The notes beneath the pieces are model-generated. The model had not been told where the DNA came from, made no database searches, and saw only the letters and a program-made list of their open reading frames with translations. Source: Mesorhizobium intechi (GTDB lineage: Bacteria; Pseudomonadota; Alphaproteobacteria; Rhizobiales; Rhizobiaceae). Taken from it: a stretch of 64,000 nt of DNA. Shown here one piece after another: positions 3,101 through 29,420 of this stretch. Numbering within the stretch: position 1 is the stretch's first letter; every line of letters starts with the position of its first letter. Where the stretch lies: positions 1 through 64,000 of the forward strand of contig NZ_PNOT02000243.1 of NCBI RefSeq assembly GCF_002879535.1, given 5' to 3'. Position numbers and translations under genes: made by a program.

Positions 3101-6100
3101 CGGCCGTGCCGCCGAAGACCACGAACGAATCGCCCGAAGCGCCGCCCAGCGCGCCGGTACCGAGGCCGACGGTCCCAGATACGCCGCTCAGGACGACGTT
3201 GTCGGAACCGCCGCCGGACGAGGTCGAGTCCAGCGCGATGGTGGCGGCGACGCCGGAGAGATTGATCGCCTGGCCGCCGGTCGCGTTGATCGTCTCGGCG
3301 GCCGCGGAAGCGGTGATGCCCATCGTGCCGCCGGTGCCGACGATGCCGGTGCCGGAGGTGGTGTCGATGGTCAGGCCTCCGGTGAAGCTGGTGGCGCCGC
3401 CGGCCTGCAAGAGACCAATGCCGCTCGCCGTGTCGATATTGGCGAGTCCGGTGACGTTGAGCGTGCCAGTCTGGACATGGATGCCGCCACCGGTTGTCGA
3501 GGTATTGTTCACCGTCAGCGTGTTGAAATTGAACGTGCCGGTGTTGGCGTTGGTGGCATCGATGCCGAAGCCCGACGTGTTGGAAACGCTTGTCGCGCCG
3601 GTCACGGTGAAGGTGCCGGCAACGCCATCGAAGGTGATGCCGCTGGCGACGCTGTTGACGACGGCGCTGACGCTGGAGAACGTCATGTTGACGGTCAGCG
3701 GATCGAGATAGAAGGCCGGGCCGTTGGTGGTGGTGACCACGCCGCCGCTGCTGTTCAGCGCGAAGATCGTGCCGGCGCCCTTGGTGTTGACCAGGACGCC
3801 CGTGCCGCCGTTGTTGGCCAGGCTGAGCGTGCCCAAGTCGAGGGTGCCGCTGGTGTTGGTGAAGCTCAGGCCATTGCCCTGGACCCGCGCGCCGGCAGTG
3901 CCGATGCCGAGCGTGCCGGCGCTGACGGTGCCGCCGGCACCGTTGGAATCGAAACGGACATTGTTGAAGGCGATGCCGCTGCCGGTCCCGCCGGTCACTT
4001 TATTGTCGGCAAACGACCTGATCGCGATCGAGTTGTCCGTCGTACTGATGTTCTGGCCGGAGAAGGATGCCGCCAAGGCGGATCCGGTCGATGTCAGCGT
4101 GTTGCCGTCGATCGAAAGCAGAAGCGTGTTGGCCGACGCGCCTGACGTGGAGAAGTCGAGCGCCCGGCCCCCGGCGGCGATGTCGTTGTTCCTGATCACG
4201 AAATTGGATGCGGTCCCGGCATTGGCGACGATGCCGGCGCCGCTGCCATAGTTGCTGACGGTAACGTTCTGCACGCCGGCGGTGATGACGCCGGTGCCGC
4301 TCGTCGGCAAGGTGATCGTGGCGGTGCCGTTGCCGGCCAGGATAGGCGTCGAAGCGTCGAGGCCGCCCGGGTTCGCAACAAGCGTCGAAGACGGGATGGT
4401 GGTGAAGTGGAACGCCGGCGAGGCACCGCCGGCGGTATCGACGCCGAGCTGGGAAACATCGATCGCCGCGTCGCCATTCTTGAACGAGATCAGCGCCTGC
4501 CCGTCCTTGAGATCGAACGAATTGTTGCCGATGTCGATGGTCTCGACACCGCCGCTGGTCTTGTCGACCAGAACGAAGACGTTGGCCGAGGACAATTCCG
4601 CCTGGGCGACGCTGCCTGGATTGAGGAAGCTGCCATTGCCGAGGCCCGACGAATTGCCGGCGGCGTCGATGTAGAAGACACGGATCGCCGACAGGTTCGA
4701 CGTATCGCCCAGGAAATTGACGTCGTTGAAGTTGTAGTCGCCCGATGTCGGCAAGGTGTCGACGGCGTCGATGACCCGGCCGCCGCCGAAGGTCGCGATC
4801 GACGATGCCGCCGGGCCGGCACCGTCGCCGAACACCAGCTTGGCGTTGGTGGCGCTGGAGAACAGCACGCCGCGCGCGACGTTGCTGATGGTCGAGGCCT
4901 GGTCTCCCGGATTGTCGCTGTTGTCGGTGTTGCCGAGCTGGATCGTGCCGGTGCCGGTGGTGCCGGCCATGTCGATGCCAAGCGTACCGGCAAAGCCGCC
5001 GCCGGCAACGTCGAAATCGCCAGCCGTTATGCCGGCGTTGACGATGGCACCGTTAAGGTCGAGACCGACGGCGTTCGCCGCGCCCAGCCCGATATTGAGG
5101 CTGGTGAAGCCGACCGTCGCGGCGAGCGTGCCGGTAATGTCGACGCCGCGCGAAGTGATGCCAAGCAGGTTGAGCGTGCCGAGATTGATGGCGCCGCCGC
5201 TGACATTGTTGAGCAGGATGCCGGTCCCGGCGCCGTTGACGGAGATCGAGCTGAAGTTGACGCCATCCGCGCCGACCGTCGCACCGTCGAGCCTGAGCGC
5301 GCTTCCGGTCGTCGTGGTGATGGTGTTGTTGAGGCCGGCCACGCTGAACCTGCCGGCACCGGTGGTGCTGGCGTTGATGCCGTAGCCGAAGCCGGTGGTG
5401 ATGCCGAGGCCGCCATTGGTGAAGGCGAGCGTGCCCGTGCCGGCGGACCTGACGATGGCGTCGTTGGCACCGGTGCTGAAGGTCTTCGATGTACCGGAGA
5501 AGGTGGCGGTTCCCTGTGACGTCCCGTTGAATGCGACGCCGGTGCCACCGGTATGAGCGATGGTGCTGGAAATATTGTACACGCCGTTGGCGCCAAAGAA
5601 GGCGAAAGCCGTCGACGAGGTGGTCGAGGCGATCGAGCCGCTGAGGTTGAGCGTCGCCAGGTCGGCGCCACCGGCGCTCACCACGCCACCCGTACCGACC
5701 TTGACCGAGCCGTTGTAGTTCAGCGTGCCGCCGGTATTGCCGCCGACATCGATGGCCACTGTGGTGGTGCTGGTCGTCGCGCCGATGCTGGCGGTGCCGC
5801 TATTGCCACCGATGTTGGCAGAGCCACCAAAGACGCCGTCGAAGGCAATGCCGGTCGTGCCGCCGTCCACGGTCAGGCTGGATCCGGCGACATTGGCGAT
5901 GTTCACCGTACCGATCTGGCCGCCGAACTGGATACCATTCCCGGCAACGTCGATATTGGTCGTTCCGGTGAAGTTGACCACACCGGTGCCGGTTATGCCA
6001 AACAACGTGACGCCGATCGCGCCCGTATTGGTCAGGCCGCCAATGTTGACATTGCCGGCGAGGTCGACGCCATTCAGCACCACACCGCCGCCCAAAGCGC

Positions 6101-21151: not shown

Positions 21152-21787
21152 TCAGTACAGCGTGATGAAGGCCGGGAACAGCAGGCCCGCCTGCCGCAGA
21201 TACTCGATCAGCTCGATTGCAGGGAAGATCGCGAGGAAATAGAGCCCGTCATGGAAGGTGCGCTTGAGTGCGCGGGTCGAGAACTGCAGCTGGTCGTCGT
21301 CGCGGTAGAGCAGCGGGTTCGGCCAGAAGCGCGGCGTCCTCTTGATATAGGCGGAATAGGCCGGGCCGAACTTGCCCAGCAGATATTCGGCCTCTTTGCG
21401 CGCCGTGACGCGGAAGATGAGAAAGCTGGCCACGCCAAGCACGGCTGCCGCCACCAGCGAACCGTAGGCCAGACCGATGCCGACGGCTCCCACGGTCGAG
21501 AAGAAATAGAGCGGGTTCTGGCTCATCGAGAACGGCCCCGTCGAAACCAGCTCCTCGTTCTTCTTTCCGCCGACATAGAGGATGCTCCACAGCCGGCCGG
21601 CAACGCAGGCCAGCACCAGCCAGAAGCCGACGAATTCGAGCATTTCGTGGCCGTTGGAACCTTCGCTGAGCGCAGGCTTGGTGAGGAACAGCAGCAGCAC
21701 CGCCAGCGCCGCCGCCACGCGCACGAAGACCAGCCGCTTGCGCTGGACGAAAGCCTTTGAAGCCGGCTTGAGGGACGCGTAGGTCAT
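21152..21787 (-). CDS. isoprenylcysteine/phospholipid methyltransferase-like membrane protein
   Basis: A protein of 211 residues with about five hydrophobic segments. The segment from GPFSMSQNPLYFFSTVGAVGIGLAYGS to RVTARKEAEYLLGKFGPAYSAYIKRTPRFWP carries the ICMT/PEMT signature (R/QNPLY, then E...L...G..Y..Y....PRF.P). These integral membrane enzymes use S-adenosylmethionine to methylate prenylcysteine, phospholipids or other lipidic acceptors. The acceptor here is unknown. The ATG at 21787 is preferred over a GTG 18 nt upstream; the SD is weak (GGAAA). It is divergent from the envelope two-component locus. Confidence 0.7.
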   Translation of the reverse strand: MTYASLKPASKAFVQRKRLVFVRVAAALAVLLLFLTKPALSEGSNGHEMLEFVGFWLVLACVAGRLWSILYVGGKKNEELVSTGPFSMSQNPLYFFSTVGAVGIGLAYGSLVAAAVLGVASFLIFRVTARKEAEYLLGKFGPAYSAYIKRTPRFWPNPLLYRDDDQLQFSTRALKRTFHDGLYFLAIFPAIELIEYLRQAGLLFPAFITLY

Positions 21788-21919
21788 TCGTGTTTTCCGG
21801 GCCACGGATTACGGGTTCAGCCACTGGGGCGCGCCATTGATGGCGGATACAAGGCCGTCGCTTTCTATCAGCGCAGCTTGCGGCATTCGTAAAGGCCTTT
21901 TGCGCCAATCACGGCCATC

Positions 21920-21948
21920 CTTACGAATTTGTATGCCTCGGGACAGGC
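21920..21948 (+). promoter_or_regulatory. 29-bp box C: putative response-regulator site
   Basis: CTTACGAATTTGTATG followed by CCTCGGGACAGGC. The same 29-bp layout (CTTAC, N6, GTAAG, then C/G-rich and a CAAGGC-like end) occurs at 25687-25715 and 28913-28941, each time in the direction of transcription and 60-105 nt before a start. It lies 103 nt upstream of the small secreted protein gene at 22052. Confidence 0.5.
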
Positions 21949-22051
21949 TGGAGCGAAGTCGCTTCCTTATCGTTCCGATGCCGGTCCGCCAATTAGGGGT
22001 CGGCTTCAATTACGGCAGCCGGTCCACCGGCATCAGATAGGGAATGGTTTC

Positions 22052-22309
22052 ATGAGACGATTTTCAGTTGCCATCGCAGTGGGGACCCTCGCTGTCTCGG
22101 CAGCGATTTCCACCGCTTATGCGGCACCCGCGCCTTGTGAGGAAAGTCTGAAAGCCCTTCGTGCCGCTGAAGCGACAGCCAAGCTCAACGACGCCGACAA
22201 GAACAAGGTCTCGGAGCTGGAGACCAAGGGCATCGAACGCTGCAATGCCGACGACGACAAGCGCGCCGACGACTTCTTCGCCCAGGCCATGAAAGTCATG
22301 GGCAAGTAA
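22052..22309 (+). CDS. small secreted protein, unknown function
   Basis: A protein of 85 residues. A signal peptide (MRRFSVAIAV..., cleavage near AYA at 22-24) leaves a mature part of about 60 residues rich in Ala, Lys, Asp and Glu. It has two cysteines, C29 and C64, that could pair in the periplasm. The mature part is predicted to be helical (SLKALRAAEATAKLND, NKVSELETKGIERC). It is first in a likely operon with a COG4705 membrane protein and the two-component system, and carries box C upstream. I do not recognise the family. Confidence 0.6.
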   Translation: MRRFSVAIAVGTLAVSAAISTAYAAPAPCEESLKALRAAEATAKLNDADKNKVSELETKGIERCNADDDKRADDFFAQAMKVMGK

Positions 22310-22433
22310 TCCATGTCGTCCAGGCACCGTCGGGCCTCATCCGAGGTGTGCCGCGACTGAGACATGACATGCATGCAAATCCCCCGCGCTGCGCTTTCAT
22401 CCCGCCGTAACCGTCAACCTCAGGACCTCAGCC

Positions 22434-23228
22434 ATGCTCCCAACCAACAAGCAGCCTGCCGGCCCGAACCAAAACAGGGTTCCGGAGGTCACGCTCGATT
22501 TCTGGCTGGTCAAGCTGATGGCGGTCACCATGGGCGAGACGGCGGCCGACTATCTCGCCGTCAATCTCGGGCTCGGTCTGACCGTGACCTCGGTGATCAT
22601 GACCGGCGTGCTGATCGTCGCCCTTGTCCTGCAGTTCGCGCAGAAACGCTACGTGCCCTGGGCCTACTGGCTGGCCGTGGTGCTGATCAGCGTCGTCGGC
22701 ACGCTGATCACGGACAACCTCGTCGATAATTTCGGCGTGCGCCTGCAGACGACGACGATTGCCTTCTCGGTCGCGCTCGTGGCGACCTTCGCGGTCTGGC
22801 ACGCCAGCGAGCGGACGCTGTCGATCCACACCATCTTCACCACGAGGCGCGAGATCTTCTACTGGCTGGCGATCCTGCTCACCTTCTCGCTCGGCACCGC
22901 CGCAGGCGATCTCGTCGCGGAAACTTTCGAGATGGGCTATCTCCAGTCGGGCCTCATGTTCGGCGGCGTCATCGCGCTGATCGCGCTTGGCTATTATGTC
23001 AGCCACCTCGACGCCATCCTCGCCTTCTGGCTGGCCTATATCCTGACGCGCCCGCTTGGCGCCTCCTTCGGCGATCTCCTGTCGCAGCCGGTCGAATATG
23101 GCGGCCTCGGCTTCGGCACCACCTTTACCAGCCTGATCTTCCTGGGCTGCATCGCAGCACTGGTTCTCTACATGACGCTGAAGAAAATCGCCGACGATGC
23201 CGACGAGATCCTGCTGGAACATGATTAG
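22434..23228 (+). CDS. COG4705-type membrane protein with fourfold internal repeat
   Basis: A protein of 264 residues with about eight membrane segments. The same unit of roughly 55-60 residues recurs four times: FWLVKLMAVTMGETAADYL, YWLAVVLISVVGTLITDNL, YWLAILLTFSLGTAAGDLV and FWLAYILTRPLGASFGDLL. Each has aromatic-W-L, a Gly and then an Asp followed by Leu. This matches the COG4705 group of uncharacterised inner-membrane proteins. The periodic acidic residues inside membrane helices hint at ion or metal handling, but this is inference. It sits just upstream of the two-component genes (90 nt) and may be co-transcribed. Confidence 0.75.
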   Translation: MLPTNKQPAGPNQNRVPEVTLDFWLVKLMAVTMGETAADYLAVNLGLGLTVTSVIMTGVLIVALVLQFAQKRYVPWAYWLAVVLISVVGTLITDNLVDNFGVRLQTTTIAFSVALVATFAVWHASERTLSIHTIFTTRREIFYWLAILLTFSLGTAAGDLVAETFEMGYLQSGLMFGGVIALIALGYYVSHLDAILAFWLAYILTRPLGASFGDLLSQPVEYGGLGFGTTFTSLIFLGCIAALVLYMTLKKIADDADEILLEHD

Positions 23229-23318
23229 GCTTCGACGTTTGGCCGCTTGTGCCATTCTATGATCGGGGCCATGCCGGTGATAGCCTGTGCCCGATATCGG
23301 CTCTCAACCGGAACAGCG

Positions 23319-24002
23319 ATGCGACTTCTTCTTGTCGAGGACGACCACAAGACGGCGGACTATATCGTCAGGGGACTGGCCGAGGCCGGCCATGTCTGCG
23401 ACCTCCTGCGCAACGGCCATGACGCGCTTTTCGCCGCCACCAGCGGCAACTATGACGTGATCGTCGCCGACCGGATGATCCCGGGCCTGGACGGCCTGTC
23501 GATGATCAAGGCGGTGCGCGCGGCCGGCGTGCGCACGCCGGCGATCTTCCTCACCTCTATCGGCGGCATCGACGACCGCGTCGAAGGCCTGGAGGCCGGC
23601 GGCGACGACTATCTGGTCAAGCCCTTCGCCTTTTCCGAACTGCTTGCCCGCATCAATGCGCTCGGGCGCAGGCCGGCGGCGCAGGAGCAAAAGACGATGC
23701 TGCGGGTCGGCGACCTCGAAATGGACCTCATCATGCGGCGTGTCACGCGCCAGGGTCGGCCGATCGACCTGCAGCCACGCGAATTCAGCCTGCTGGAGGT
23801 GCTGATGCGCGGCGAGGGCCGCGTGATCACCCGCACCATGCTTCTGGAGCGCGTCTGGGACTTTCATTTCGATCCCAAGACCAGCGTTGTCGAGACCCAT
23901 ATCAGCCGGCTGCGGGCCAAGGTCGACAAGCCGTTCGAGACCCAGCTCATCCACACCATCCGCAACACCGGCTACAGCCTGCACGCGCCGCTTGCGCCAT
24001 GA
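23319..24002 (+). CDS. OmpR/PhoB family response regulator
   Basis: A protein of 227 residues. The receiver domain has the acidic pair in LVEDD, phospho-acceptor D51 in VIVADRMIPG, switch T/S in FLTSIGG and K101 in VKPF. The C-terminal winged helix (about 130-225) includes LQPREFSLLEVLMRGEGRVITR and the recognition helix SVVETHISRLRAKVD. It is translated together with the sensor kinase: the stop and the next start overlap in ATGA. The ATG at 23319 is the one that starts directly at the receiver fold. Its likely targets are the three units preceded by the 29-bp box. Confidence 0.9.
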   Translation: MRLLLVEDDHKTADYIVRGLAEAGHVCDLLRNGHDALFAATSGNYDVIVADRMIPGLDGLSMIKAVRAAGVRTPAIFLTSIGGIDDRVEGLEAGGDDYLVKPFAFSELLARINALGRRPAAQEQKTMLRVGDLEMDLIMRRVTRQGRPIDLQPREFSLLEVLMRGEGRVITRTMLLERVWDFHFDPKTSVVETHISRLRAKVDKPFETQLIHTIRNTGYSLHAPLAP

Positions 24003-25372
24003 CCGCAAGCTGGTCTCGCCTGCTGCGCAGCACGCCGTTCCGGCTCGCCCTCACATTCGCCTTCCTGTTCATGCTGGCCTTCATCCTCGCGGGCGCCATC
24101 GTCTACCAGATGATGAGCGCCGATCTTGCGGAGCAACTCGACGACACCATCAAGGACACCTACGCCGTCATCGCCGCGAGCAATGCCGACAATGATTCCA
24201 AGGAACTGGTCGAGACCATCGAGAGCCACTCCACGCGCAGCCCGAGGAAGGAGCAGCTGTTTTCGCTGACCGACGCTGCCGGCAACCGGCTGGCCGGCAA
24301 CTTCACCGCAGCGGGGCTTCCCGACGGCTTTTCGATGTTCGGCGCCGAAATGCCCGGCCTGCCCCAAGGTACTCAGTACCGCGCCTATTCGGGCGCGGTC
24401 GGCGGCAACACCCTGACGGTCGCCATCAGCCTGTCCGAGACGGAGGAACTGGAGACGATCATGCTGATGAGCTTCGGCTGGGCGACCCTGATCATCACCG
24501 GGCTGGCGGTCGCCGGCGGCGCGCTGCTTGCCTCGCGTGTCCAGCTCCGCCTCGACGGCATTGCCGCCACCATGGTCGACGTCTCGCACGGCCGGCTCGA
24601 TACGCGCATTCCGCTGACCGGCAACGGCGACGACATCGACGTCGTCTCCAGCCAGGTCAACGCGGCGCTCGATCGCCTGTCGGGCCTGGTGGACGGCATG
24701 AAGCAGGTCAGCACCAACATCGCGCATGACCTGAAGACGCCGCTCAACCGGCTGCAGATGATCCTCGACAGCGCGTCGGAAAAGAACCTGTCGGGCCAGA
24801 AAGTCGGCAGTGAACTGGCCGAGGCGTATGCCGAGAGCCTGCAGATCAACGAGACGTTCGACGCGCTGCTGCGCATTGCCCAGATCGAGGCCGGCGCGCG
24901 CAAGGCGCGGTTCACCGATGTCAACCTCGGCGAGATTCTGCAAACCATCGCCGAGATCTACACCGACGTGGCCGAGGATGACGGCAAGTCGCTGTCGTCG
25001 GTCGAGCTGCACCGGCCCGCCGGCCGCATCCATGGCGACCCCGAACTGCTGACGCAGATGTTCGCTAATCTGGTGGAGAACGCGCTGCGCCATTGCCCGC
25101 CGGGCACGACCATCAAGCTGTCGGTGGCGCGCGACGGCGACCATGTCCTCGCCGCGGTCGCCGACAATGGACCCGGCATTCCCCCGGACGAACGCGAAAA
25201 AGTCTTCCAGCGGCTCTACCGGCTCGACCACAGCCGCTCGACGCCGGGCAGCGGCCTTGGGCTGAGCCTCGTCAGGGCCATCGCCGAGCTGCACGGCGCA
25301 TCGATTGCGCTCGAGGATTGCCGGCCCGGCCTTGCCGTGGTGGTGAGCTTCCCTCTGCTCACCGCTTCTTAG
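23999..25372 (+). CDS. membrane sensor histidine kinase
   Basis: A protein of 457 residues: TM1 about 16-38, a periplasmic sensor part of about 110 residues (39-152), TM2 about 155-178, HAMP about 180-233, phospho-acceptor H243 in NIAHDLKTPLNRL, and an ATPase domain with N-box LVENALRH, G1 DNGPGIP and G2 GSGLGLSLV. It partners with the response regulator whose gene overlaps it by 4 bp. The arrangement is like PmrB/QseC-type sensors; the signal is unknown, but the context of glycosyltransferases suggests envelope stress or cations. The stop TAG belongs to a degenerate TAGAGCA-type repeat (TAGGGCAATTCC). Confidence 0.9.
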   Translation: MTASWSRLLRSTPFRLALTFAFLFMLAFILAGAIVYQMMSADLAEQLDDTIKDTYAVIAASNADNDSKELVETIESHSTRSPRKEQLFSLTDAAGNRLAGNFTAAGLPDGFSMFGAEMPGLPQGTQYRAYSGAVGGNTLTVAISLSETEELETIMLMSFGWATLIITGLAVAGGALLASRVQLRLDGIAATMVDVSHGRLDTRIPLTGNGDDIDVVSSQVNAALDRLSGLVDGMKQVSTNIAHDLKTPLNRLQMILDSASEKNLSGQKVGSELAEAYAESLQINETFDALLRIAQIEAGARKARFTDVNLGEILQTIAEIYTDVAEDDGKSLSSVELHRPAGRIHGDPELLTQMFANLVENALRHCPPGTTIKLSVARDGDHVLAAVADNGPGIPPDEREKVFQRLYRLDHSRSTPGSGLGLSLVRAIAELHGASIALEDCRPGLAVVVSFPLLTAS

Positions 25373-25475
25373 GGCAATTCCGCGAAAACGCGCGAGACGA
25401 TCTTCCGCCCGTAACTAGCCAGAAAGGAAGTGAGAACCGGTCGGGTTTCCAGACCTCGCCCACGTCCCGGCTCCA

Positions 25476-25622
25476 TCACCACATCCAAGGCAGGTATGGG
25501 TGCTCGTCGAACCCCGTCGGATGTCCGGGCATGACCAGAAGACAGATCATGGCCACCAGCGCCATCGATGTGGCAAAGCAGATCGAGTTGCCCCAACGAG
25601 GGGAATGGCCGCGACCCCGCAT
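25476..25622 (-). CDS. small one-helix membrane protein (copy A)
   Basis: A protein of 48 residues with an excellent SD, GGGAGG, 6 nt before the ATG. A basic N-terminus (MRGRGHSPRW) is followed by one membrane helix (ICFATSMALVAMICLLVM) and a short tail ending PYLPWMW. The layout matches the small ORF at 28674-28826 (basic start, one helix, VM, a G..P tail, W-x-W end). It is preceded at 64 nt by box A and reads toward the sensor kinase gene. It is too short for homology assignment by eye. A role as a regulator or stabiliser of membrane enzymes is a guess. Confidence 0.5.
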   Translation of the reverse strand: MRGRGHSPRWGNSICFATSMALVAMICLLVMPGHPTGFDEHPYLPWMW

Positions 25623-25686
25623 GATGATCCTCCCAACGCGACCGGCCTGCAGAGCCGGAAATCCAGCCTGCCGTGGCAATACTGCC

Positions 25687-25715
25687 GCCTTGCCGGGTTC
25701 TTACAAATCGGTAGA
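25687..25715 (-). promoter_or_regulatory. 29-bp box A: putative response-regulator site
   Basis: On the minus strand this reads TCTACCGATTTGTAAG then AACCCGGCAAGGC, nearly identical to box B at 28913-28941. TAAG and CAAG are 11 bp apart, one helical turn, as in tandem OmpR-family sites. It lies 64 nt before the small membrane protein gene (copy A). Confidence 0.5.
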
Positions 25716-25725
25716 AGCCCCGCTT

Positions 25726-25812
25726 TCGTCGGTCGATATGCGTCGACGGGATGGTCGACGACAAGCCCCGCTCGGACCCTCCATGGCGTCGATCCGGTCG
25801 GGCGCCGCGCGT
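25726..25812 (-). pseudogene. remnant of the 3' end of an lrp gene (duplicate)
   Basis: This segment aligns with the last 80-90 bp of the Lrp gene at 28992-29420. The codons for SSTIPSTHIDR (compare SSSIILSTRIDR) and, in another frame, RIDAMEG (compare QIGAMDG) are visible. A 1-nt deletion breaks the frame (30 nt against 31 nt between GACGAC and CCATGG) and the stop codon is lost. No 5' part is present, so it is a non-functional duplication footprint. Confidence 0.65.
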
Positions 25813-25888
25813 GTGAGCGCCGTCAAGCGGGCCAGCTGCCGGCCGGCGCCGCGATCCGCATCGGGTATCCGTGCACCGGCGAACAGCT

Positions 25889-27049
25889 CTACTGCCGGCG
25901 CCAGGTGATGGCGGAATTGGTGATGTAGTTCCACGCCGCGCCGACGACGGCGCCGGCAAGGCCGGCAACCCACCAGCGTGAGTGGCCACTATAAAGAAGC
26001 GTCGATACGCCGACACCTGCCACGACGCCGAAGCTGCAAAGCCCGGCGAACATGACGAGGCCCGTCAGGAATCGCCAGCCGCGCCGGCGCTGGTCGCGAT
26101 AGGTGAAGGCGTTGTTCAGCGTGTAGTTGAAGGCCATCGCGGTGAACATGGCGGCTGTCTGAGCGACGGCAAACGACAGCCCGTGCGGCAGCAATGCATG
26201 CAGGACCGCGAGATGGACGACAACACCGGCGGATCCGACCAGGCCAAAGGCAAGGAAGCGCGTCGAGATCAGGTCTCCCGACATTTTCGCGACCAGCAGA
26301 CCGGCATATTCAAGCGCGACAAGGGAATCGAGCTTGCTCTCCCCGTGCAGGCGCGGGCCAAAGACGTAAGGGATTTCCTTGATCCTGATGGCATTTGTCG
26401 AAGAGGCGACAATGTCGAGCAGGATCTTGAAACCTTGCCGCGACAGCCGGGGCGCCACCGCGTCGACGATTTCCCTGCGCAGCATGAAGAACCCGCTCAT
26501 CGGATCGTTGATCGGTGTTTTCAGAAGCTGGCGCGCAAGCCGCGTCGCCAGCCGGCTGGCGCCGGAGCGCAGCCTGGTGAACCCGCCGCTTGCACTGCCG
26601 TCGCTCTGGTAACGGCTGGCAATCACCAGCTCCGCCTCGCCGCCTTGCAGGATCGCCAACATGGCGGGCAGGCATTTTTCGTCGTGCTGCAGATCACCGT
26701 CCATGACCGCGACGATCGGCGCCGAGCTCGACAGGATGCCCTCGAGGCAGGCACCGGCAAGGCCGCGCCTGGCAATGCGCCTGATGCCACGAACACGGTG
26801 ATCGCCGGCGGCAATGTCGCGGACCGCCAGGATCGTGCCATCCTTCGAATCGTCATCGACAAAGACCACTTCCCAGTCGATGGGTCCCAGCGATTGCCGC
26901 AGCCGGGCCACCAGCAGGCCGATGTTGGCGCGCTCGTTCAGCGTCGGAACCACGATCGTCAATTCCGGGCCGCCATGCCGGGCCGCGACGGGGAATGCGC
27001 TGTCGGTCGCCAATGCCACGGCGCCGTGCCTGGGGGCCGCCTGGTTCAT
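25889..27049 (-). CDS. GT2 glycosyltransferase with C-terminal GtrA-like domain
   Basis: A protein of 386 residues. Residues 30-245 form a family 2 glycosyltransferase of the dolichyl/undecaprenyl-phosphate mannose synthase type: VVPTLNERANI, FVDDDSKDGT and the DXD-like DGDLQHDEK at 117-125. From about 250 a GtrA-like domain with four membrane helices follows (FLAFGLVGSAGVVVHLAV to AAWNYITNSAITW). It probably transfers a sugar from a nucleotide donor to undecaprenyl phosphate and helps present it across the membrane. The start overlaps the stop of the GT39-type gene (ATGA), so the two are coupled. Together they resemble the ArnC/ArnT logic of lipid A or polysaccharide decoration; the sugar is unknown. 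Confidence 0.85.
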   Translation of the reverse strand: MNQAAPRHGAVALATDSAFPVAARHGGPELTIVVPTLNERANIGLLVARLRQSLGPIDWEVVFVDDDSKDGTILAVRDIAAGDHRVRGIRRIARRGLAGACLEGILSSSAPIVAVMDGDLQHDEKCLPAMLAILQGGEAELVIASRYQSDGSASGGFTRLRSGASRLATRLARQLLKTPINDPMSGFFMLRREIVDAVAPRLSRQGFKILLDIVASSTNAIRIKEIPYVFGPRLHGESKLDSLVALEYAGLLVAKMSGDLISTRFLAFGLVGSAGVVVHLAVLHALLPHGLSFAVAQTAAMFTAMAFNYTLNNAFTYRDQRRRGWRFLTGLVMFAGLCSFGVVAGVGVSTLLYSGHSRWWVAGLAGAVVGAAWNYITNSAITWRRQ

Positions 27050-28665
27050 GGCTGTCCCCCAGGCGGCTGGACATTGGCTGCCGGGAGCGGCGGCACCGAC
27101 CGCGTCACGGGCAGAATCAGCATGTCGAAGACCGGAAAGCCGGAAAGCCGCTGCGTCATGCGCCGGGCGTCGCCGTCGACGACGAACAGGCCGCCGACAC
27201 TGTCGCGATAGTCTTTCTCCTGAGCGGCCTCGTCGTCGCGGAAATTCATGGCGCCGATGAAAAAGCCCTGGGTTTGACTGGCGAGGCGCCTGTCGTCCAT
27301 GAACTGGAAGTGGCGCGGATCTCCGGGAAGCACCTCGATCGGAGTGTCCGGACCAAGTTCGTAGGCCAGCTTGGCGGCCTGCATCCAGTTCGCGGCGACG
27401 ACATATCCGTTGGCGCGCCTGATCTCGTCGGCGACCTTGCTGTCCGTCAGCGCGGACCAATCGACGAGCTGCCAGTTGACGTCGAACTTCGACGCCCTTT
27501 GGAAAAAGGGCCTGGTCAATGCCGCGGTCGTCGCCTGCACCGCGAACCCGGTGGCCAGAAGCGGAACGACGGCGGCGGCGACGACGATGGACACCACGAG
27601 CAGTCTTGGCCTGCGCAACGAGAATGCGCCGCACCAGTGACCGACGAGCGGAAAGGCAAACAGGAAGCCGCTCATCGACCAGTGCGGCAGCGAGTGCGCG
27701 CTGACCAGGGCGATCAGGTCGAAGAACACGACAGGTGGCGCCGCGAGCAGCACGAAGAGGCGATCGGCCGCCGTGCCGCCCCAGGCGCCTCGCCACAGGC
27801 ACGCCATGGCGACCGCCCAGATCGGCGGCCAGACATACAGCGCCTGTCCGAGCAACGTGACGGCGAGGTTGCCGGGATGCAGCAGATGGCCGTCGTTGGC
27901 AGTACCCCGTCCGGACTGGAATGCCAGGGAAATCCAGCCATGGTCCATGTTCCATATCACGACCGGCAGCAGGCCAAGTGCCGCGATGGCGCCTGCAACC
28001 CATGGCCCTGCAGTCCGGAGCTGGGCTTGGCCGGGTTTCGTCGAAAGCAGGACCAGCAGCGCCGAGATGCAGAACAGACCGGCCTGATATTTCGACATCA
28101 GCGCCAGCCCGAGCGCCACGCCGGCCGCGCACCAGCGCAGAAACGCAAAACGCGGATCAGCGCCGAGAAGCATCGGCGCGGCCAGGCAGGCGGCGGCCAG
28201 CAGAAAGAAATCAAGCGGCCCGTCGGGAACGACGAAATGGCCGGCGGAGATGAGAAAGAACGGGGCGACCGTATACCAGGCCACGGCCCAGAATGCGGCG
28301 ACGGCACCATAGGCATATCGGGTCAGTGCAAACAGCAGCAGCGCCGACAGCGAGCCGAGCACGACATAGGGAAGCCTCACCACAAGCCGGCATTCGCAGC
28401 CGAAGACATCCGCCATGAACCGGGCAATCGCGAAGCCGATCGGCGGATGATCGAAATAGGAAAGCGAATGGCTGCGCGACACCACGACCGCGTAGGCCTC
28501 GTCGATCGACAATGGAATGACCGATGCAAGCCCGATCCTGAAGACCAGGAACACGGCGACGAGAAGTGCCATCTGGGAGGCCGGGTGCAACGGAAGAGCG
28601 CGCGCCTCGCCGGAAGCGGGCCACGTGGCTACGCCGGCGCCTTGCAAGGTCTCTTCGATCTGCAT
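27046..28665 (-). CDS. ArnT-like membrane glycosyltransferase (PMT/GT39-GT83 family)
   Basis: A protein of 539 residues with about 11 membrane helices and a C-terminal periplasmic part. The PMT-type signature is present in the first loops: LSIDEAYAVVVSRS with the catalytic-type Asp-Glu, followed by YFDHPPIGF. Such enzymes take a sugar from a polyprenyl phosphate carrier and add it to lipid A, glycans or proteins on the periplasmic side. The ATG at 28665 is preceded by TAGGA with good spacing and lies 8 nt after the stop of the small membrane protein gene. The longer upstream frame lacks family character and overlaps that small gene. It forms an operon with the GT2-GtrA gene downstream. Confidence 0.85.
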   Translation of the reverse strand: MQIEETLQGAGVATWPASGEARALPLHPASQMALLVAVFLVFRIGLASVIPLSIDEAYAVVVSRSHSLSYFDHPPIGFAIARFMADVFGCECRLVVRLPYVVLGSLSALLLFALTRYAYGAVAAFWAVAWYTVAPFFLISAGHFVVPDGPLDFFLLAAACLAAPMLLGADPRFAFLRWCAAGVALGLALMSKYQAGLFCISALLVLLSTKPGQAQLRTAGPWVAGAIAALGLLPVVIWNMDHGWISLAFQSGRGTANDGHLLHPGNLAVTLLGQALYVWPPIWAVAMACLWRGAWGGTAADRLFVLLAAPPVVFFDLIALVSAHSLPHWSMSGFLFAFPLVGHWCGAFSLRRPRLLVVSIVVAAAVVPLLATGFAVQATTAALTRPFFQRASKFDVNWQLVDWSALTDSKVADEIRRANGYVVAANWMQAAKLAYELGPDTPIEVLPGDPRHFQFMDDRRLASQTQGFFIGAMNFRDDEAAQEKDYRDSVGGLFVVDGDARRMTQRLSGFPVFDMLILPVTRSVPPLPAANVQPPGGQP

Positions 28666-28673
28666 CTGGTTTC

Positions 28674-28826
28674 CTACCAGAACCAGAACATGTGGGACTC
28701 CGGCGCCGGGCCATTTCCCACCATGACGACTGTCAGGCAGGCGACAGCCAGCAGGACGATGCCGGTCCTGATCCAGATCCGCTGGGCAGCCTGGGCGGGA
28801 ATATTGCGCGGTACGGTCAAAGCCAC
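28674..28826 (-). CDS. small one-helix membrane protein (copy B), first gene of the GT operon
   Basis: A protein of about 50 residues, started from GTG at 28826; a TTG at 28820 is an alternative with GAGAGG 5 nt upstream. A short polar N-terminus (TVPRNIPAQAAQRIWIR) precedes one membrane helix (TGIVLLAVACLTVVMV) and a tail ending SHMFWFW. It resembles copy A at 25476-25622 in size, helix and W-x-W end. Its stop codon is 8 nt before the start of the ArnT-like gene, which suggests coupled translation. Box B lies 86 nt upstream. Confidence 0.45.
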   Translation of the reverse strand: MALTVPRNIPAQAAQRIWIRTGIVLLAVACLTVVMVGNGPAPESHMFWFW

Positions 28827-28912
28827 CTCTCGGAACACGACAGGCTTTCGGCTCTGGGATGATCTTGGCCGCTGCGGTTCCGGCGAGACACTGCCTCGTC
28901 AATCATACGGCC

Positions 28913-28941
28913 GCTTTGCCGGGTTCTTACAAATCAGTAAG
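28913..28941 (-). promoter_or_regulatory. 29-bp box B: putative response-regulator site
   Basis: On the minus strand this reads CTTACTGATTTGTAAG, a perfect CTTAC/GTAAG inverted repeat, followed by AACCCGGCAAAGC. It lies between the Lrp gene and the small-protein/glycosyltransferase operon and has the same layout as boxes A and C. Confidence 0.55.
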
Positions 28942-28991
28942 AGGTTCAAATCGTTCAAGGGCGATCCGGCCCGCACGGCCGGCGCCGGCTT

Positions 28992-29420
28992 TCACCGGTC
29001 GATGCGCGTCGACAGGATGATCGACGACGAGGTCCGCTCGACCCCGTCCATGGCGCCGATCTGGTCGAGCAGCGCGTCGAGGTCGCGGATCGACGGCGCG
29101 TCGACGATGACGATCATGTCGAAATTGCCGCTGACGGAGTGCAGCGTCCTGACCGGCGGCAGCGCCTGCAGCGCGCGCACCACCTTGTCCGCGAGCTTGG
29201 GCGTCACGGTGAGCAGCACATGCGCCTTGACCAGGCCCTGCTCATAGTCCGCGGAGAGCTTGACGCCATAGCCTGATATGATGCCGCGCTGTTCCAGCCG
29301 CTCGATCCGGCTCTGCACCGTGGTGCGCGACACGCCGAGCCGCCGCGCCAGTTCGGCCGTCGAGGCACGGGCGTTGGAACGCAGCAGGGAAAGCAGCGCC
29401 TGTTCGGCTTCACTGAGCAT
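28992..29420 (-). CDS. Lrp/AsnC family transcriptional regulator
   Basis: A protein of 142 residues: helix-turn-helix at about 18-42 (TAELARRLGVSRTTVQSRIERL) and a C-terminal RAM ligand-binding domain (VKAHVLLTV, HSVSGNFDMIVIVDA, SSSIILST). Lrp-like proteins sense amino acids and form octamers on DNA. It is divergent from the saccharopine dehydrogenase-like gene (170 bp apart), whose expression it probably controls in response to lysine or a related amino acid; this follows from position only. Its last 80-90 bp exist a second time at 25726-25812. Confidence 0.9.
   Translation of the reverse strand: MLSEAEQALLSLLRSNARASTAELARRLGVSRTTVQSRIERLEQRGIISGYGVKLSADYEQGLVKAHVLLTVTPKLADKVVRALQALPPVRTLHSVSGNFDMIVIVDAPSIRDLDALLDQIGAMDGVERTSSSIILSTRIDR

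Follow-up and report, generated by a model that had tools for sequence, protein, structure and literature searches.

A shared extended promoter motif as candidate operator of a CzcR-like two-component regulator in Mesorhizobium intechi

A 64,000-nucleotide stretch of the Mesorhizobium intechi genome (contig NZ_PNOT02000243.1, positions 1 to 64,000; referred to here as the window) contains the gene of an OmpR-family response regulator (23319-24002, plus strand), followed by the gene of a sensor histidine kinase (23999-25372, plus strand) and surrounded by three similar 29-bp boxes. Taken as a whole, the data are best explained if the boxes are operators of the regulator encoded at 23319, a reading to which we assign a probability of about 0.78. 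The regulator thus probably binds the boxes, as a preliminary description of this DNA had proposed, and this is well supported at the sequence level by conservation of the boxes in relatives and by their co-occurrence with the kinase.

Position and sequence of the boxes

Box 1 is located at 21920-21948 on the plus strand and reads CTTACGAATTTGTATGCCTCGGGACAGGC. Box 2 (25687-25715, TCTACCGATTTGTAAGAACCCGGCAAGGC) and box 3 (28913-28941, CTTACTGATTTGTAAGAACCCGGCAAAGC) are both on the minus strand. All three were found on re-reading at the places given in the preliminary description. Every box is oriented towards the next gene, and the gaps between box and start codon are 103, 64 and 74 nt for boxes 1, 2 and 3, in agreement with the 60-105 nt mentioned before. 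The likely starts used for these gaps were ATG 22052, ATG 25622 and GTG 28838, the last one being uncertain. Boxes 2 and 3 are identical at 25 of the 29 positions, boxes 1 and 3 at 19 and boxes 1 and 2 at 18. The CTTAC start that had been described as common to all boxes is present in boxes 1 and 3 but not in box 2, which begins with TCTAC. Three matches to the core TTAC-N6-GTAA (up to one mismatch) exist in the window, and each of them corresponds to one of the boxes.

Conservation upstream of the two-component operon

The kinase scan yielded 72 loci, and the closest named matches were from Mesorhizobium with up to 95% identity. The motif was then looked for upstream of the orthologues, a check suggested in the preliminary description. 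Of 52 testable loci from Mesorhizobium and relatives, 50 have the core (up to one mismatch) in the 700 bases upstream of the operon. These loci are related to each other and are not independent draws; many flanking columns vary among these loci while the core is constant. The test covered 58 sources (the window and L034-L090, with L091-L105 outside its range), comprising 50 with a site, two without a core within 700 bases upstream of the operon (L050 and L072), two whose loci were truncated at contig ends and four in which no regulator hit passed the 70% filter. This filter excluded L087-L089, and cores near the regulator start were seen in L087 and L088. At some loci (e.g. L067 and L068) tblastn shows neither the secreted-protein gene nor the DUF347 gene found upstream of the regulator in the window, and the box is located directly before the regulator, which points to autoregulation.

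Eleven further sites of the class represented by box 3 (P2, see below) were found in 10 relatives. Eight of them precede an open reading frame (ORF) for a small one-helix protein, and in one case each the following gene is PMT_2 or PAP2; nothing of this kind was seen after the site in L055.

A promoter plan shared by five classes of sites

Extended beyond the 29 bp, the sites were grouped into five classes. P1 precedes the two-component operon and P2 the operon of small ORF and transferases. In relatives, P3 is found before an operon for a secreted protein and an ABC transporter (genes read in L064, L073 and L078; Pfam finds two ABC_tran domains and MacB_PCD/FtsX in the L064 operon), and P4 (L053) and P5 (L038) precede DUF1344 proteins, with similar ORFs in L040 and L062; these assignments cover the P3 and P4 loci named. 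Sites were placed in classes and oriented by eye together with gene direction, so class membership was not blind. From 49 core sites behind the kinase 37 were assigned to P2-P5 and 12, which had no shared plan or clear gene, were omitted. Removal of one site that was shifted by one base (L055 14729) reduced the class sites from 87 to 86.

The gapless alignment of all five classes shows CTTAC at position 0, GTA[AT]G at 11, G..A at 22, a G-led element (GTGAA, GTATG, GTAAG, GACAA or GAAAA types) at 33 and a −10-like (T/C)A...T at 48, 10 bp past the last half-site. The inverted repeat TTAC-N6-GTAA is the most conserved part in every class, as judged from a 71-row alignment of sites that were collected by this very core. 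When the core was omitted (positions 17-54), the similarity of the class profiles was best at shift 0 (−0.24) and ranged from −0.99 to −1.48 at 24 other shifts, for which no p-value is claimed. Beyond the shared columns the five promoter classes differ. In sequence register, successive half-sites are spaced by 11 bp and lie about one helical turn before the −10 element, and since these steps end 10 bp before it, the layout is that expected for an activator of the OmpR/PhoB type. An alternative assignment of the C/G-rich part of the box as −35 element was rejected, because the spacer to the −10 element at position 48 would be 22 bp. This part is read as the third half-site, since it then falls at an 11-bp step.

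According to this plan, the predicted promoter/operator P1 of the window (extended box 1; 21920-21973, plus strand) consists of the half-sites CTTAC (21920-21924), GTATG (21931-21935), GACAG (21942-21946) and GCGAA (21953-21957) and the −10-like hexamer TATCGT (21968-21973). The predicted P2 (extended box 3; 28888-28941, minus strand) has its core at 28926-28941, followed by GCAAA (28915-28919), GTATG (28904-28908) and the −10-like CAGTGT (28888-28893). For box 2 the corresponding region is 25678-25715 (minus strand), with the core at 25700-25715, an altered first half-site and further elements at 25689-25693 and 25678-25682.

Prediction of the window boxes and whole-genome search

A held-out matrix of 56 positions was derived with equal weights from the P1, P3 and P4 sites found in other genomes, leaving out every site of the window as well as P2 and P5. 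Applied to the window, it placed box 1 (49.1), box 3 (33.0) and box 2 (13.5) on ranks 1-3; the fourth place scored 2.3 and the maximum over 30 shuffled windows was 10.1. Box 3 is predictable from the other promoter classes, and the score of box 2 exceeds chance only modestly.

For the search of whole genomes we used a profile model (R1) made from 71 sites after omission of 15 P1 rows that were judged close to others. R1 includes the three sites of the window, and its E-values for the boxes are thus not independent. Within the genome of this strain (6.58 Mb) E-values below 1e-5 were obtained for the three boxes and for C303:5877-5916 alone (150 of 3957 first-look candidates were scored). This fourth site was absent from the training set, lies some 64 nt upstream of a DUF535 gene (PF04393, E 2e-39) and scores 40.0 on the held-out matrix. 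Another site on this contig, an exact palindrome at 3130-3158 (L115, G000:C303), is weak (15.4 bits, E 0.12). It lies 2.7 kb from the DUF535 promoter and is flanked by a histidine-phosphatase-like and a secreted phosphatase-like gene, both named by eye.

Co-occurrence with the kinase and distant sites

Among 61 congeners the kinase (E ≤ 1e-150) was found in 44 and was missing in 17. A site at E ≤ 0.001 is present in 41 of the 44 kinase-bearing congeners versus one of the 17 kinase-less ones (Fisher p 7.6e-11). The kinase-less exception (G014) is a draft of about 940 contigs, and its P1-like site is 156 nt away from the end of a contig.

Sites at a distance from the two-component locus precede DUF535 genes in G000, G005 and G050, a PMT_2 gene in G029 (P2-class), a small secreted protein in G012, a methyltransferase in G034 and DUF1344 proteins in G005 (a second site) and G055. 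A site before an HlyD/CusB-type adaptor was found in G021, and in G027 several sites are spread over a second contig, among genes for DUF347, an ABC exporter and PAP2. G007 was left out of the distant count, as the site on its second contig is the P1 of a locus that contig ends have split (L131, which holds the methyltransferase, DUF347 and the regulator start). DUF535 genes occur in 13 of the 61 genomes, every one of them kinase-bearing (p 0.012); three of the boxed DUF535 genes have strong sites (40.0 to 45.9) and one has a weaker site about 0.3 kb upstream (24.9). Strong sites of this kind argue against a regulon restricted to the locus, as it had first been described.

Near the DUF535 genes of G034 (L160) and G045 (L171) there are also TTTACAAAAATGTAAAG-like palindromes that do not follow the promoter plan and might be used by a related regulator. 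The DUF1344 proteins that follow a box (L053:14362-14616, L038:9547-9798, L151, L152 and L180) give sub-threshold matches to CusF, a copper-binding periplasmic protein, a possible link of these proteins to metals.

At E ≤ 1e-4 the site was detected in 9 of 199 genomes of the order, five of them outside Mesorhizobium. The site is at most 1.4 kb from a regulator with 58-64% identity in G209, G081 and G162 and about 2.3 kb from a 75% identical regulator in G083, and is located elsewhere in G149. G064 (regulator 75% identical) has a site before a secreted-protein/DUF347 pair. In G209, which belongs to another family, one site is followed by a DUF1344 protein and the other by a secreted protein with psiF repeat; the gene after the site in G083 looks, by eye, like a sugar transferase. 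Around regulators of 62-75% identity a site scoring above 15 and above 10 shuffles each was found in 4 of 12 cases (L187, L189, L190 and L192), and around those of 57-61% identity in 2 of 8 (L200 and L205); the cut of 15 was fixed after the scores had been seen, and L189 and L190 are the already known G149 and G209.

Kinship of the regulator and comparison with known systems

The regulator is a member of the OmpR/PhoB family with a receiver (PF00072) and a winged-helix domain (PF00486). Among the 96 families listed for it the best is cztR_silR_copR (TIGR01387) with 257.8 bits, below the curated cut-off of 279.2, and the best NCBIfam model for the kinase is cztS_silS_copS (TIGR01386) with 183.3 bits, again below the cut-off (292.55). 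By sequence, the repeat TTAC-N6-GTAA matches the inverted-repeat operator of the CzcR/CopR type in the literature. Pseudomonas putida CzcR3 was footprinted on aTTAC-N6-GTAAT, and the footprint at its own promoter covers 36 bp with three half-site motifs (PMC8469834). ChIP-seq of P. aeruginosa CzcR gave GAAAC-N6-GTAAT, with ATTAC-N6-GTAAT of P. stutzeri cited alongside (PMC8025907). The agreement of operator type with regulator subfamily is the best support from outside. CzcRS of Pseudomonas shares with the present system the best curated models, the inverted repeat and an extended multi-motif arrangement, which is a footprint at the CzcR3 promoter and a predicted promoter plan here. Unlike CzcRS, both proteins score below the cut-offs and this locus has no czcCBA operon; no metal-efflux genes (RND/czcCBA or cop) were found among the ten cluster proteins scanned. 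Furthermore, the sensor region of the kinase has no invariant His or Cys among 19 homologues, which is a weak hint as regards a response to metal ions, and Asp48 and Asp66 are invariant.

The PmrAB/BasRS-arn system is similar in that GT2 and PMT_2 glycosyltransferases are encoded beside a two-component regulator. The designation of the cluster as PmrAB-like may fit gene content and function, but it is wrong for the kinship of the regulator (PmrA 165.4 vs. a curated cut-off of 330 bits; PmrB 106.3 vs. 314 bits) and for the main operator type. PmrA-type boxes are tandem, and the core found here is inverted. As to the tandem OmpR-family site proposed earlier, the 11-bp phasing is confirmed and reaches further than had been noted, but the main conserved element is a CzcR-like inverted repeat.

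DUF535, which we take to be the VirK/YbjX family, has a match in E. coli. The Salmonella genes virK and ybjX are PhoP targets, with a PhoP box 12 nt before the −10 element and a second box upstream (PMC3335776). The boxed DUF535 gene and the 10-nt gap to the −10 element are comparable to this, but box sequence and regulator subfamily differ from PhoPQ (PhoP model 120.2 vs. cut-off 336). Agrobacterium VirK belongs to PF06903, a family different from DUF535 (PMC554113). DUF347 has been proposed as a metal transporter, and DUF347-UppP operons of Frankia are induced by lead (PMC4531530). The pairing of DUF347 with a membrane phosphatase has a counterpart in relatives, where PAP2 genes carry the box or lie next to it; the cluster of the window lacks a PAP2 gene.

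The genome of this strain also encodes a paralogous CzcR/CzcS-like pair (G000:C313:3176-5325), with 54% identity for the regulator and 41% for the catalytic part of the kinase. Titles and abstract starts, with subscription journals mostly outside this survey, revealed no account of the motif or regulon. The text of PMC8249747 does not mention the HprR/CusR boxes of E. coli.

Apparent duplication and likely cassette exchange at boxes 2 and 3

The sequence just upstream of box 2 matches, at 74 of 92 nt, the 3′ end of the Lrp gene located upstream of box 3. This degraded copy (25719-25809, minus strand; 80% over 92 nt) apparently marks an old duplication or a recombination joint, and because of it boxes 2 and 3 are not independent of each other. 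The order Lrp end, box and small ORF is thus present twice in the window. In relatives the neighbour of Lrp is either a small ORF without transferases (L051, L059) or an ORF with transferases (L060). Together with the doubled order, these alternative arrangements make the window look like a recombination product with two alternative cassettes. An altered base in the first half-site and the lack of a good −10 element at the expected place (−10 part −6.9) suggest decay of box 2.

Throughout the strains, the interval between kinase and Lrp (25372-28992 in the window) carries varying box-bearing cassettes. It contains nothing, a small ORF, the transferase operon, PAP2, or an ABC exporter with DUF1344, and is likely a site of cargo exchange.

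Proposed mechanism and alternative explanations

If the boxes are operators of the adjacent regulator, the kinase, in response to a putative signal, would phosphorylate its partner, which would most likely bind as two dimers to four half-sites at 11-bp steps (CTTAC, GTAAG, G..A, G..A). With its end 10 bp away from the −10-like hexamer, the last half-site occupies the usual place of a −35 element, and for this reason the regulator would recruit RNA polymerase in the manner of PhoB/PhoP, replacing the −35 contact. From box 1 it would activate its own predicted operon (secreted protein, DUF347, regulator and kinase) and from box 3 the predicted operon of small protein and glycosyltransferases; box 2 would be a duplicate in decay, perhaps weak or no longer functional. 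The fourth strong site of this strain presumably serves the DUF535 (VirK/YbjX-type) gene elsewhere in the genome. In relatives the same promoter is found before a MacB/FtsX-type ABC operon, DUF1344 proteins, the gene of a PAP2 phosphatase and that of an RND-type adaptor. By their families the targets are envelope-type genes, as had been stated before, and the system has the look of an envelope-stress regulon whose cargo can be exchanged.

Several results weigh against this reading. The number of cores in the window is not above chance (shuffle mean 1.51, at least three in 18 of 100 shuffles), and with shuffles matching it so often the window by itself is insufficient for the claim. Genome-wide, the exact 16-bp palindrome CTTAC-N6-GTAAG is found at three places and its reversed control likewise at three, so that the bare palindrome is unusable as a genome-wide signal; its place on C80 is not among the matches of the profile model. 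Co-occurrence with the kinase is partly built in, because P1 lies inside the kinase locus, and in three kinase-bearing congeners (G008, G018 and G060) no site was detected at E ≤ 0.001 under strict filters. Distant or other-contig sites, where "distant" may in drafts mean merely another contig, give weak statistics (9/44 vs. 0/17, p 0.051). Only 4 of 14 DUF535 genes are preceded by a box, and beyond the genus site specificity appears to be kept in part and to fade with distance.

Other explanations of the boxes can be measured against the same data. The half-sites at 11-bp steps are real and GT2 and PMT_2 recall ArnC and ArnT, as they should if the PmrA-type tandem (TAAG and CAAG 11 bp apart) were the true site and the system a PmrAB orthologue. 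We regard this as improbable, given that the inverted repeat is most conserved in all five classes of sites (collected, as stated, by that core) and that PmrA, PmrB and ArnT scores are far below the curated cut-offs. Related regulators may share motifs, and paralogue-type kinase matches exist in nearly all congeners searched; the paralogous CzcR-like regulator on C313 or another OmpR-family factor could therefore bind the boxes. However, 16 of the 17 congeners without the local kinase have a weaker paralogue-type kinase match, and 15 of these 16 are without a box (E ≤ 0.001; the paralogous regulator itself was not searched). The kinase paralogue hence does not explain the boxes, and binding by such a factor is likewise improbable.

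The Lrp-end remnant beside the decayed box 2 would fit a scenario in which boxes 2 and 3 are alike through segment duplication alone, with no regulon in the locus beyond box 1. Yet 10 of the 11 further P2-class sites precede a one-helix ORF, PMT_2 or PAP2 gene, the distant P2-class site of G029 stands before a PMT_2 gene, and the matrix blind to the P2 class recovers box 3 with 33.0, which makes duplication alone quite improbable. That the extended motif, which contains a −10-like hexamer, represents a normal core promoter or some mobile repeat rather than an operator is highly improbable: four matches (E < 1e-5) in 6.58 Mb and the presence in 9 of 199 genomes of the order (E ≤ 1e-4) are too rare for this, and the five classes differ outside the shared columns.

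Concerning the function of the operators of the CzcR-like regulator, polyprenyl-carrier sugar transfer, PAP2, MacB/FtsX, DUF535 and the small proteins would suggest a role in envelope defence and point to an undescribed surface-defence circuit. DUF347 and DUF1344 would allow a role in metal response as well, which speaks against the envelope-defence reading. A wider reading is offered tentatively. It supposes a CzcR-type lineage in Mesorhizobium and relatives that was redirected from controlling metal efflux to controlling an envelope-defence regulon similar to those of PhoP and PmrA, with DUF535/VirK-YbjX, sugar transfer, lipid phosphatase, MacB/FtsX exporter, DUF1344 and one-helix proteins as cargo. 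The promoter of four half-sites would be attachable to new cargo, cassettes between kinase and Lrp would be swapped by recombination, and the regulon may protect rhizobia from antimicrobial peptides of the host or from soil metals.

To our knowledge, an operator has been defined for few rhizobial response regulators. The 54-bp promoter model, the named regulator and the target list form a set that is directly testable in a harmless bacterium of soil and nodules. If the proposal is true, an operator type of metal regulators serves an envelope regulon of the kind known from PhoPQ and PmrAB, and a handle on surface remodelling in nodule bacteria is provided.

Further features of the locus

To the left of box 1, and diverging from it, a PEMT/ICMT-like methyltransferase is encoded (21152-21805, minus strand). 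It is a frequent neighbour in relatives and may share the promoter region of box 1. The predicted operon behind P1 starts with the gene of a small secreted protein of 85 aa (22052-22309, plus strand), for which no match was found in Pfam or NCBIfam, followed by a DUF347 (PF03988) membrane protein (22434-23228, plus strand; Pfam E 1e-57) and by regulator and kinase. All genes to the right of the kinase described here are on the minus strand. Behind P2 a GT2 glycosyltransferase with GtrA domain (25889-27049), by family of the polyprenyl-phosphate-sugar synthase type, overlaps a PMT_2 family glycosyltransferase (27046-28665), which matches PMT_2 but reaches only 24.3 bits with the ArnT equivalog (cut-off 567). 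An Lrp/AsnC-family regulator gene (28992-29420) ends beside box 3 and is a frequent right-hand neighbour in relatives.

Small membrane protein A (25476-25622; 48 aa, C-terminal PWMW) and small membrane protein B (28674-28838; about 48-54 aa, ending with MFWFW, start uncertain with GTG or TTG) probably have one helix each and gave no match in Pfam or NCBIfam. They are part of a family of promoter-associated one-helix membrane proteins that was also obtained in this analysis, with about 45-60 residues, a C-terminal W-[FMIV]-W and a position directly after a P2 promoter. Besides A and B of the window it includes members in L036, L038, L051, L058, L060, L062 and L086. These proteins are possibly small regulators of the neighbouring transferases.

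At L158 (G031:C2:258000-272000) and L155 (G027:C2:15000-29000) a second copy of the two-component operon was seen beside genes that, by eye, resemble those for conjugation (type IV secretion). The two-component system may thus travel on mobile elements.

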